64,000 nt of DNA from Actinotalea alkalitolerans (GTDB lineage: Bacteria > Actinomycetota > Actinomycetes > Actinomycetales > Cellulomonadaceae), in the NCBI RefSeq assembly GCF_023369855.1, contig NZ_JAMBPP010000016.1:1-64000 (forward strand). Direction: 5' to 3'. Below are positions 12,884 through 21,861 of this stretch, in pieces (position 1 is the stretch's first letter; each line of letters opens with the position of its first letter). A model generated the notes under the pieces. That model had not been told where the DNA came from. It saw nothing but the letters and a program-made list of their open reading frames with translations, and ran no database searches. The position numbers were made by a program, and so were the translations under genes.

Positions 12884-12958
12884 TCCCGTGCGTCTGCTCG
12901 TCACCGGTGGTGCCGGCTTCATCGGCTCCAACTTCGTCCACCAGACGGTGCGCGAGCG
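12884..12958 (+). repeat. Direct repeat R1, copy 1 (start of rmlB)
   Basis: 75 bases around the rmlB start that recur at 21638-21712 with three mismatches by hand count (72/75). In copy 2 the repeat is joined directly to the end of ugd. Confidence 0.9.
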
Positions 12959-13883
12959 ACCCGACGTCGAGGTCACCGTGCTGGACGCCCTGACCTACGC
13001 CGGTGACCGCGCCAGCCTCGCTCCCGTGGCCGAGAAGGTCACCTTCGTGGAGGGCGACGTCGCCGACGCCGAGCTGGTCGACCGCCTCGTGGCCGACGCC
13101 GACGTCGTGGTCCACTTCGCGGCCGAGTCGCACAACGACAACTCGCTGTCGAACCCGTGGCCCTTCGTCCAGACCAACGTGATCGGCACCTACACCCTGC
13201 TCGAGGCGGTGCGCCGGCACGGGACGCGCTACCACCACATCTCGACCGACGAGGTCTACGGCGACCTCGAGCTGGACGACCCCGCGAAGTTCACCGCCGA
13301 GACCCCCTACAACCCCTCGAGCCCGTACTCATCGACCAAGGCCGCGAGCGACCTGCTCGTGCGCGCATGGGTCCGGTCCTTCGGGGTGCAGGCGACGCTG
13401 TCGAACTGCTCCAACAACTACGGCCCGTTCCAGCACGTCGAGAAGTTCATCCCGCGCCAGATCACCAACGTGATCGACGGTGTGCGCCCCAAGCTCTACG
13501 GGACGGGCGAGAACGTCCGCGACTGGATCCACGTCGAGGACCACAACTCGGCCGTCTGGGCCATCATCGAGCGCGGCGCGATCGGCGAGACGTACCTCAT
13601 CGGCGCGGACGGCGAGGAGAACAACAAGGCGGTGGTCGAGCTGATCCTCGAGCTCAGCGGCCTGCCCCGGGACGCCTACGACCACGTGAGCGACCGGCCC
13701 GGGCACGACATGCGCTACGCGATCGACTCCTCCCGGCTTCGCACCGAGCTCGGCTGGGAGCCGCACTTCACCGCCTTCCGCGACGGGCTGGCCGCGACCA
13801 TCGAGTGGTACCGCGCCAACGAGGCGTGGTGGCGACCCCAGAAGGACGCCACCGAGGCGAAGTACGCCCAGCTCGGCCGCTGA
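12888..13883 (+). CDS. rmlB: dTDP-glucose 4,6-dehydratase
   Basis: 331 residues, normal length. It makes dTDP-4-keto-6-deoxyglucose for dTDP-rhamnose and other deoxysugars. The sequence shows G7-G-A-G10-F-I-G13 for NAD, the STDEVYGD stretch with T120, D121 and E122, and Y147/K151. The strong GGAGG ribosome site fixes the GTG start. ugd follows after 33 bases and is co-transcribed. No rmlA, rmlC or rmlD lies in the window, so rhamnose synthesis must be completed elsewhere, or the 4-keto sugar has another fate. The first 24 codons recur almost exactly in the chimeric pseudogene at 21642. Confidence 0.95.
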
Positions 13884-13916
13884 CCGGCCGACCCCACCTC
13901 AGACAAGGACGTCCAG

Positions 13917-15251
13917 ATGACGCAGCTCTCGGTGATCGGATGCGGGTACCTCGGGGCGGTGCACGCGGCGTGCATGGCGGACCTCGGGCACGAGGTCGTC
14001 GGGGTCGACGTCGACCCCGACAAGGTCGCCCAGCTCGCCGCCGGCAAGGCACCGTTCCACGAGCCCGGCTTCGACGACCTGCTCCAGCGGGCCATCGCGA
14101 GCGGCCGGCTGCGGTTCACCACGGACATCGCCGAGGTGCACGGCTCGCAGGTGCACTTCATCTGCGTGGGCACACCGCAGCAGGCCGGGCGGAACGCCGC
14201 GGACCTGACCTACGTCCACGCGGCCGTGGAGGCCCTGCTCCCCCACCTCGCGGTGCACGCCGACGGTCCTGTGGTCGTGGTCGGCAAGTCCACCGTGCCG
14301 GTGGGCACCGCCGCGGAGATCGCCGCACGGATCGACGCCGACGCACCCGGCTCGGGGGCGAGCCTGGTGTGGAACCCCGAGTTCCTGCGCGAGGGGTTCG
14401 CCATCCAGGACACCGTGGCGCCGGACCGCATTGTCTACGGTCTCGGCCCGGGAGATCGCGGGCAGGCCGCGCGGGTCGTCCTGGACACGGTCTACGCGAG
14501 CCAGCTCGAACGCCACACCCCGCTCATCACCACCGACTACGCGACCGCCGAGCTCGTCAAGGTCGCGGCGAACTCGTTCCTCGCGACCAAGATCTCCTTC
14601 ATCAACGCGATGGCCGAGCTGTGCGAGGCCACGGGCGCGGACGTCACCCAGCTCGCCGAGGCGATCGGTCACGACGAGCGCATCGGCCCCAAGTTCCTGC
14701 GGGCCGGCGTCGGCTTCGGGGGTGGTTGCCTGCCCAAGGACATCCGCGCCTTCATGGCCAGGGCCGGGGAGCTCGGGGTGGACCAGGCGCTGACCTTCCT
14801 GCGCGAGGTCGACGCGATCAACCTGAGGCGGCGCACCCACGTGGTCGAGCTCGCCCGGACGGCGTGCGGCGGCGACCTCTCGGGTGCCCGTGTCACGGTC
14901 CTCGGTGCGGCGTTCAAGCCGCACAGCGACGACGTCCGTGACTCCCCGGCCCTGGAGGTCGCCTCGACGATCGCCGGGGCGGGTGCGCACGTCACCATCA
15001 CCGACCCGGCCGCGCTGGAGAACGTGCGGCGGGTGCGTCCTGACCTCAACCTCGCGGCGGACCCGCTCGAGGCCGCCGACCGGGCCGATGTCGTGGTGCT
15101 GCTGACCGAGTGGGAGGAGTACGTCACGCTCGACCCCGAGCAGCTCGGCACCGTGGTGGCCCATCGGCAGGTCATCGACGGTCGCAACGCCCTGGACCCG
15201 GTGCGCTGGCGTGCAGCCGGATGGACCTACACGGGCCTGGGTCGGCCCTGA
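13917..15251 (+). CDS. ugd: UDP-glucose 6-dehydrogenase
   Basis: 444 residues. It oxidises UDP-glucose to UDP-glucuronate using NAD. N-terminal Rossmann domain (SVIGCGYLGAVHAACMADLGHEVVGVD), a central helical domain with TDYATAELVKVAANSFLATKISFINAMAE, the catalytic Cys (C271) in GGGCLPKDI, and a C-terminal domain ending in GWTYTGLGRP. Starts at ATG with AAGGA upstream, second gene after rmlB. Its last 37 codons and 31 bases beyond the stop are repeated at 21720-21861. The 260 bases between this stop and the convergent GT4 gene hold no gene that I can support. Confidence 0.95.
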   Translation: MTQLSVIGCGYLGAVHAACMADLGHEVVGVDVDPDKVAQLAAGKAPFHEPGFDDLLQRAIASGRLRFTTDIAEVHGSQVHFICVGTPQQAGRNAADLTYVHAAVEALLPHLAVHADGPVVVVGKSTVPVGTAAEIAARIDADAPGSGASLVWNPEFLREGFAIQDTVAPDRIVYGLGPGDRGQAARVVLDTVYASQLERHTPLITTDYATAELVKVAANSFLATKISFINAMAELCEATGADVTQLAEAIGHDERIGPKFLRAGVGFGGGCLPKDIRAFMARAGELGVDQALTFLREVDAINLRRRTHVVELARTACGGDLSGARVTVLGAAFKPHSDDVRDSPALEVASTIAGAGAHVTITDPAALENVRRVRPDLNLAADPLEAADRADVVVLLTEWEEYVTLDPEQLGTVVAHRQVIDGRNALDPVRWRAAGWTYTGLGRP

Positions 15252-15282
15252 TCTGCACGATTCCTCCACCACGCCCACCCCT
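15141..15282 (+). repeat. Direct repeat R2, copy 1 (end of ugd and downstream)
   Basis: 142 bases covering the last 37 codons of ugd, its stop and 31 bases of downstream DNA. Copy 2 is at 21720-21861 with four substitutions and no gaps by hand count (138/142). The repeats bracket the opposite-strand glycosylation cassette. Confidence 0.92.
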
Positions 15283-15511
15283 CGGCGTGGCGACGGACCC
15301 GGCGACGACGGGAGTGGACGGGTCACCGAACACGTCCCCACGCCGACTCGTCGTCCTCGTTCGTGACGGGGACGAGGAGACGATTCCCAGCATGCTCACG
15401 AGGACCACCATGCCGGTCGGAACAGATCGCGCGGTGCGGCAGGTGTTTCATGGGCATCCGAACGTGTGAGGGACGCGAGCCCCCACAGGCCTCGTCACCA
15501 CCGGTGGAGAG

Positions 15512-21488: not shown

Positions 21489-21606
21489 GCCGATCGGCGC
21501 AGGGCGCTGGTGCACGCCATGCGCACCCGTCAGCCCCAGTGGCCAGGGCCCGCGACAGCCTACAGCGGCGGCTACCAAGTTCTCGCGGGTGGGCCGCGCC
21601 GCTCGC

Positions 21607-21612
21607 TAGGGT
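21607..21612 (+). promoter_or_regulatory. -10-like box upstream of the rmlB-ugd chimera
   Basis: TAGGGT, 35 bases before the chimera GTG; rmlB has TAGGCT 41 bases before its GTG. The GGAGG of rmlB is not conserved here (CGAGA instead). Confidence 0.4.
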
Positions 21613-21637
21613 GGCACCTCACCCACCACCTCGAGAC

Positions 21638-21712
21638 TCCCGTGCGTCTGCTCGTCACGGGTGGTGCCCGTTTCATCGGCTCCAACTTCGTCCACCAGAC
21701 GGTGCGCGAGCG
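21638..21712 (+). repeat. Direct repeat R1, copy 2 (rmlB start inside the chimera)
   Basis: Matches 12884-12958 in 72 of 75 positions by hand count. It is joined through seven unmatched bases (21713-21719) to copy 2 of R2. Confidence 0.9.
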
Positions 21713-21830
21713 CGCCGCGCAGCTCGGCACCGTGGTGGCCCATCGGCAGGTCATCGACGGTCGCAACGCCCTGGACCCGGTGCGCTGGCGTGCGGCCGGA
21801 TGGACCTACACGGGCCTGGGACGACCCTGA
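21642..21830 (+). pseudogene. Chimeric remnant: first 24 codons of rmlB joined to last 37 codons of ugd
   Basis: An intact 62-codon frame reads [24 protein letters not shown], two new residues, then QLGTVVAHRQVIDG to the ugd C-terminus WTYTGLGRP. The Gly at position 10 of the NAD motif is Arg, and no catalytic part of either enzyme remains, so it cannot work as a dehydratase or dehydrogenase. It is an in-frame fusion left by a deletion between two copies, or a scar of recombination that inserted the cassette. The DNA after it is the ugd downstream sequence and leads straight into the LCP gene, suggesting that the ancestral order was rmlB-ugd-LCP. Confidence 0.9.
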
Positions 21831-21861
21831 TCTGCACGACTCCTCCACCACGCCCACCCCT
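21720..21861 (+). repeat. Direct repeat R2, copy 2 (ugd end inside the chimera)
   Basis: Matches 15141-15282 with four substitutions and no gaps; homology runs 31 bases past the ugd stop codon and ends before the LCP promoter. Confidence 0.92.

Follow-up and report, generated by a model that had tools for sequence, protein, structure and literature searches.

We describe here a wall-polymer locus of Actinotalea alkalitolerans, contained in a stretch of 64,000 nucleotides (contig NZ_JAMBPP010000016.1, positions 1 to 64,000; hereafter the window), in which a five-gene glycan module is flanked by repeated pieces of the neighboring genes. From left to right the locus holds wzm-wzt-like exporter genes, ami on the minus strand, rmlB, ugd, five minus-strand genes, a short rmlB-ugd remnant, and the LytR-CpsA-Psr genes LCP1 and LCP2. 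The wzm-like gene (8579-9502) is the partner of a wzt-like ABC exporter ATPase (9436-10713, plus strand; family and profile matches), and ami (10720-12753, minus strand) matches an N-acetylmuramoyl-L-alanine amidase domain with DUF4214. The intact rmlB (12888-13883, plus strand) encodes a dTDP-glucose 4,6-dehydratase (TIGR01181, 457.4 bits against a cut-off of 365.1), and ugd (13917-15251, plus strand) a nucleotide-sugar dehydrogenase of the UDP-glucose 6-dehydrogenase type, as judged from a profile match and a tree. The module, as had been read from the sequence alone, consists of five opposite-strand genes: a GT4-type glycosyltransferase (15512-16693; family match), a 718-residue polytopic membrane protein (16680-18836), a MATE/MOP-fold flippase (18833-20080), a UbiA-type decaprenyl-phosphate phosphoribosyltransferase (20077-20943) and a PAP2-family phosphatase (20937-21446; family match), the start codons of the first, third and fifth being uncertain. 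LCP1, a glycopolymer transferase by family and profile matches, follows at 21907-23175 on the plus strand. The claim that no transposase is present held for the ten genes scanned, none of which matched a transposase family, two of them being without any significant match.

A repeat scan of 11000-24000 (minimum length 40) returned two families of direct repeats and no inverted ones. The first, D2, is the start of rmlB: its core at 12884-12958 recurs at 21638-21712 with three mismatches in 75 positions and a longest exact run of 41, and over its full extent (12872-12963 and 21626-21717) the pair is 90% identical across 92 positions. The second, D1, covers the end of ugd and, since the ugd stop lies at 15251, a further 31 bases 3' of the gene; 15136-15282 recurs at 21715-21861 with five mismatches in 147 positions and a longest exact run of 75. 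The sequence-only reading, from which this work started, had given the first repeat as 72 equal bases in 75, as we find; for the second it had rightly included the 31 downstream bases but had put the size at 142 bases with 138 equal, where we count 147 with 142 equal. At 21638-21861 the rmlB start and the ugd end are joined in frame, and the 62-codon open reading frame with a GTG start that this reading described is indeed present at 21642-21830 on the plus strand. The rmlB glycine (NAD) motif has changed there from GGAGFIG to GGARFIG (G10R); with 62 codons and a mutated first glycine motif, the predicted product cannot act as a working enzyme. A search of the whole assembly (4.37 Mb) with the 282-bp scar as query matched only the scar itself and its two parent stretches. 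An assembly artefact, a danger to which the sequence-only reading had itself pointed, or mere chance might be suspected in a draft of 35 contigs, but we rejected this explanation as scarcely credible because 8 of the 222 bases in D1 and D2 differ between the copies, which lie between unlike flanks within one contig of 90.8 kb. Adjoining the scar, where the PAP2 gene begins, a 25-base unit stands in two perfect tandem copies (21439-21488).

The comparison drew on 19 genus genomes and 221 family genomes, each set including that of the window. Among the 18 others of the genus, rmlB stands directly before LCP1, free of the module, in nine (G001, G002, G004, G008, G010, G011, G013, G016, G018) and is separated from it by an insert in four (G006, G007, G012, G017). 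In G015, rmlB occupies another place in the cluster. A close rmlB is lacking in G003, G014 and G009, the last of which has ugd immediately ahead of LCP1, and G005 carries rmlB and LCP1 on different contigs. A set of named loci, taken as the best 80 matches among at least 80 loci, gave a same-strand rmlB upstream of LCP1 in 38, directly in 26 and with an insert of 1.1-7.1 kb in 12; two further loci carry rmlB on the opposite strand, and 40 lack an rmlB at 70% or above in the fetched stretch, several of these being short contigs in which absence is not established. None of the 80 fetched stretches contains a ugd at 45% identity or above. Because the direct rmlB-LCP1 arrangement is common in relatives and no such ugd was seen in these stretches, the sequence comparison indicates that the older backbone is rmlB-LCP1 without ugd.

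The genes recognized within rmlB-LCP1 intervals comprise glycosyltransferases with a UDP-GlcNAc 2-epimerase, a glycosyltransferase and a pyruvyl transferase with S-layer-domain (SLH) proteins, and sugar epimerases and a weakly PMT-like protein, several open reading frames of the inserts being without a match. Since inserts of such varied content occur in 12 of the 38 oriented loci, the rmlB-LCP1 gap is likely a place where genes land repeatedly. Fifteen other interrupted intervals (L145, L149, L151, L152, L153, L155, L156, L158, L159, L171, L177, L212, L073 in G006, L074 in G007, L063 in G017) were compared with that of the window, all 15 for a repeated rmlB and for the motif described below, and the five longer than 2,200 bases for repeats between the ends of the insert. 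In none of the 15 is rmlB repeated on the same strand, and ugd compared with 14 of them gave only weak matches of 30-33 bases, in two intervals. A chimera of the same kind fixed across distant genera, which would have spoken against the proposed event, was thus looked for and not found among these intervals.

The 31 bases behind ugd bear on the former arrangement. Both copies carry CTGCACGA[T/C]TCCTCCAC 3' of ugd, at 15253-15269 as an orphan and at 21832-21848 in its native place ahead of LCP1. A motif of the same form occurs in 47 of the 80 LCP1 upstream regions, at a median of 73 bases before LCP1, and in none of the 80 reversed controls; it was first noticed in the genus set, which overlaps the 80 loci. 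The other interrupted intervals contain it once, at the LCP1 end, in 11 cases and not at all in four, so that it is doubled only in the window. By this comparison the 31 bases are a conserved LCP1-upstream element and do not belong to ugd itself, and copy 2 leads into the LCP1 upstream region as had been claimed. Because this element stands behind ugd and is doubled only here, copy 1 (rmlB, ugd and the element) very likely once adjoined LCP1, and the doubling is the best support for the polarity that the sequence-only reading proposed. Its ancestor, rmlB-ugd-LCP, agrees with our data as far as ugd followed by LCP1 in the immediate ancestor is concerned, as the 31 bases and G009 suggest, but not for the older state, in which ugd was missing.

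Two other signs of polarity were dropped. The T/C difference at 15261 falls on a spacer position that is variable among relatives. A terminator-like hairpin at 15269-15290 (z -3.3, 1 of 200 shuffles as good) spans the left junction of the module, and had been considered as a sign that copy 1 is the older junction; it was set aside once the 31 bases had been recognized as the LCP1-upstream element; its right arm belongs to the module flank, only the left arm lying in the repeat. The element itself has the look of an 11-base direct repeat. With one mismatch allowed, the motif occurs at seven places in the genome, against 12 for a backward control, and is thus no commoner than the control. The genome contains a single third exact CTSCACNNNTCCTCCAC (L279, G000:C5:13261-13277), upstream of another open reading frame, whose HIGVILDGNRRWAR motif suggests an isoprenyl (undecaprenyl-type) diphosphate synthase. 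The sites sharing CTSCACNNNTCCTCCAC could possibly form a small wall-synthesis regulon.

The ugd gene seems to have its own history. In a tree of 41 ugd proteins it groups with those of G009, G013 and G164 (support 96/82), joined next by G019 (99/95), the second copy of G007 (97/89) and G028 (88/95), and stands apart from the ugd common to most of the genus; seven further window-like placements should be interpreted with caution, as they rest partly on long branches flagged by the program (G019, G164, G013, G007 second copy). G009 and G019 also carry the window-type ugd beside LCP genes. The gene is probably a later, foreign arrival at the locus, judging from these placements. Besides the gene itself, a ugd search of the window's genome returned one of 57% identity on a different contig; all remaining matches were distant dehydrogenases of about 26%. 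The second type (G000:C29:254889-256196) is found in other members of the genus as well, and no ugd of the type common to most of the genus was seen in this genome.

Direct repeats of the anchor genes flank the module, as in an insertion-duplication scar. The repeats, the remnant, the changes on the copy-2 side, the rarity of module and scar, and the doubled element are direct observations; from them we infer the order of steps, the type of crossover and the donor in a scenario of insertion with duplication followed by deletion, which we regard as the probable explanation. The lineage would have started from ami / rmlB-ugd-LCP1. A foreign five-gene module would then have entered by a single-crossover-like or homology-assisted insertion-duplication, placing rmlB, ugd and the LCP1-upstream element on both of its sides. 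The redundant right-hand rmlB-ugd would subsequently have lost about 2.18 kb, from rmlB codon ~24 (base 71 of the gene, 12958) to ugd codon ~406 (near 15134), and an imperfect CGACCC(C)GA at both deletion ends, read by eye, may have guided this loss. On the right there would remain the in-frame, mutated 62-codon fossil with the LCP1-upstream element still joined to LCP1, and the intact left copy would retain the orphan element behind ugd. At the three differences in the rmlB start, the copy-1 base is shared by seven, seven and six of seven relatives, respectively, so that all three look like changes on the copy-2 side, as decay would give.

The same repeats would flank the module after a simple insertion between ugd and LCP1, as the sequence-only reading had it, with the chimera as a by-product of homology-facilitated illegitimate recombination that leaves short duplicated ends, and the 15 other loci show that inserts do arrive in this interval without an rmlB repeat. 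We consider this improbable. A deleted full second copy is preferred because a plain insertion at that point is not expected to fuse the start of rmlB to the end of ugd; ends of two genes 2.2 kb apart, joined in frame, are more easily read as a full-length copy with a deletion, and neither an rmlB repeat nor a second LCP1-upstream element was seen in any of the 15 intervals.

Since the scar copies differ at only 8 of 222 bases, against 25-29% of rmlB third positions between the window and seven relatives, the sequences indicate an event younger than the split from the sampled relatives. The claim of a fairly recent event stands in this sense, but not on the strength of the 96% identity of the rmlB starts, which is weak evidence for dating because copy 1 is itself 88-95% identical to the seven relatives over this start.

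The distribution of the module was followed through its UbiA gene, which is present in one of the 19 genus genomes, that of the window, and in 19 of the 221 family genomes. Together with the absence of an rmlB repeat from the 15 other intervals, this supports the cassette insertion of the sequence-only reading, although insertion alone leaves the chimera unexplained. Of the 18 other UbiA-bearing genomes, the regions of 13 were read (G133, G194, G195, G196 and G031 being left out). In seven of these (G023, G030, G073, G077, G081, G082, G125), PAP2, UbiA, flippase and GT4 follow one another as in the window and lie between wzt and ami. Six of the seven have rmlB on the far side of ami, not always adjacent; in the seventh, G082, the contig stops at ami and rmlB is not visible. 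Extra DNA separates ami from rmlB or PAP2 from ami in G073, G077 and G081, and the putative GT-C gene (see below) was matched in three of the seven (G030, G023, G073).

This arrangement raises the possibility that nothing foreign entered at all: the module would first have stood between wzt and ami and only changed sides, through a tandem duplication of module-ami-rmlB-ugd and the LCP1-upstream element within one genome, with subsequent loss of the module on the left and of ami and most of rmlB-ugd on the right. A single novel junction (15282/15283) would then account for the right end of the repeat. Several observations make this a rather unlikely alternative. No UbiA turned up in the other 18 genus genomes. 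In a comparison of the window with six carriers (three for GT-C), UbiA (62-66% between window and carriers, 67-77% among carriers), GT4 (63-71% and 72-84%) and GT-C (41-47% and 52-61%) are outliers, the flippase is partly so (40-48% and 45-58%) and PAP2 is not (55-64% and 54-75%); for rmlB, wzm and LCP1 the window-carrier identities overlap the carrier-carrier range. Because UbiA, GT4 and GT-C are outliers and wzm, rmlB and LCP1 are not, these identities favor a donor outside the sample over vertical descent of the module from the same locus. Furthermore, the wzt-ami gap of six bases is too small for a remnant of the module, the ami-rmlB gap is not repeated in the DNA upstream of copy 2, and a blastn search at word size seven found no convincing remnant of ami there (best 14 bases, E 0.34), though later loss or deletion could have erased such traces. 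Base composition, although it hints at a foreign module, was not used as an argument: the module has a G+C content of 68-73% and a third-position value of 0.79-0.88, against 0.93-0.96 for rmlB, ugd and LCP1, and other open reading frames of the window overlap these values.

Insertion with duplication and later deletion of the second copy has its own difficulties, and the following points weigh against it. Comparison with relatives for an empty site, as suggested from the sequence, yielded direct rmlB-LCP1 in nine and ugd-LCP1 in one of the 18 other genus genomes, besides other inserts, but the uninterrupted rmlB-ugd-LCP1 was found in no genome, and the immediate ancestor is a reconstruction. 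No donor of the module closer than 66% for UbiA or 71% for GT4 was found, and GT4 searched in 396 sampled genomes of the order gave 59% as the best value outside the family. The deletion junction is not sharp, the best placement matching 181 of 189 positions and seven neighboring ones 180, with the short repeat imperfect and read by eye. The upstream DNA of copy 2 does not resemble its counterpart at copy 1 (92 of 500 shuffles matched equally well), which leaves the left end of the duplicated unit unexplained.

That upstream DNA does resemble the rmlB upstream regions of 17 relatives, with a mean likeness at p 0.001 (0.002 without the ribosome-site region) and a best single likeness at p 0.039 (0.071). 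An rmlB-type -10 box, TAGGGT, lies at -35 from the GTG, within the range of -34 to -44 seen in 15 of the 17 relatives. The promoter of copy 2 may have been brought in with the module from a related locus; alternatively, the likeness is one that promoters share in general. Both the box and the likeness, along with the still open reading frame, could suggest that the remnant was kept after insertion as a working promoter and leader for LCP1, and as a divergent promoter for the module. This we doubt strongly: the glycine motif is mutated, the ribosome site has changed from GGAGG to CGAGA, LCP1 possesses an upstream element of its own together with a -10-like TATGAT (by eye), and an open frame at the fusion is expected one time in three.

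With respect to function, the UbiA protein scores 366.7 bits against NF008978 (cut-off 207), which classifies it as a predicted polyprenyl phosphoribose synthase. The flippase had no Pfam match in five members; its AlphaFold2 model (pLDDT 85) retrieved MATE, MurJ and WzxE structures at PDB ranks 1-20, with query TM-scores of 0.64-0.72 and identities of 12-15%, and the modeled protein accordingly has a MATE/MOP fold. The 718-residue protein gave no meaningful match in Pfam, NCBIfam or PDB sequences and a model too poor for fold assignment (pLDDT 49), and is a putative GT-C glycosyltransferase. The probable role of the module is to synthesize and flip a polyprenyl-phosphoribose donor and to decorate the exported polymer of the wall with a pentofuranose; by its gene content it appears to resemble known systems of extracytoplasmic pentofuranose addition. 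In the three-component system of Citrobacter youngae O1/O2 (Kelly et al., 2024; PMC11127046), a polyprenyl phosphoribose synthase, a MATE-family flippase and a large polytopic candidate glycosyltransferase likewise lie near ABC-exporter genes. That prototype has a GT136 glycosyltransferase and serves an O antigen, whereas the large protein of the module is GT-C by candidate status only, and the module includes a separate PAP2 phosphatase and an extra GT4 and lies in a wall-polymer locus with LCP genes. The mycobacterial decaprenyl-phosphoryl-arabinose pathway (Rv3806c/Rv3807c), as outlined in the same paper (PMC11127046), shares a DPPR synthase and a separate phosphatase with the module. The module differs from the pathway so outlined in having no DprE1/DprE2. 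Rv3807c is presumably of the PAP2 type. PF04030 (DprE1-type) matches elsewhere in the window's genome over the C-terminal half only, and in four other carriers it is full-length in two, partial in one and lacking in one (G023). The sugar is most simply taken to be ribofuranose; given these PF04030 matches, it may instead be arabinofuranose.

The trace is reminiscent of scars from other systems. In Vibrio cholerae type VI secretion clusters (PMC5361080), for which homology-facilitated illegitimate recombination was proposed, module entry beside a conserved anchor likewise leaves orphan pieces of older genes, although those are arrays of effector and immunity genes and ours is one scar with a duplicated anchor in a wall-polymer locus. 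Salmonella O-antigen clusters (PMC3715488) also contain gene remnants from which module exchange was reconstructed; these lie within polysaccharide loci as here, but are described as remnants of wzy and of H-repeat/insertion sequences, whereas ours joins duplicated parts of two flanking genes. Tandem duplication with random loss, as discussed for mitochondrial gene order, duplicates, loses pieces and leaves fossils in the same way, but doubles a whole segment of one genome, where the present module looks foreign. The scar is probably an insertion-duplication-deletion trace, a clear but fairly ordinary case of gene exchange of a kind already known. In the open-access literature searched, no title or abstract dealt with this locus or scar, subscription papers being outside the scope of the search.

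What the locus offers is a path of glycan-module acquisition still readable in an actinobacterial wall-polymer cluster, and a testable route of excision. On the present sequence, recombination across the 147-bp D1 repeats could remove 6,579 bp, after which an intact ugd would be joined to the upstream element proper to LCP1. It is tempting, if improbable, to see in the rmlB-LCP1 interval a standing exchange site for wall-decoration modules throughout the family, with the module reversible in this strain. RecA-type recombination, aided by the exact run of 75 bp, would then restore ugd and the LCP1 promoter tracelessly, and a population might turn its wall decoration on or off, with phage pressure as one conceivable cause.

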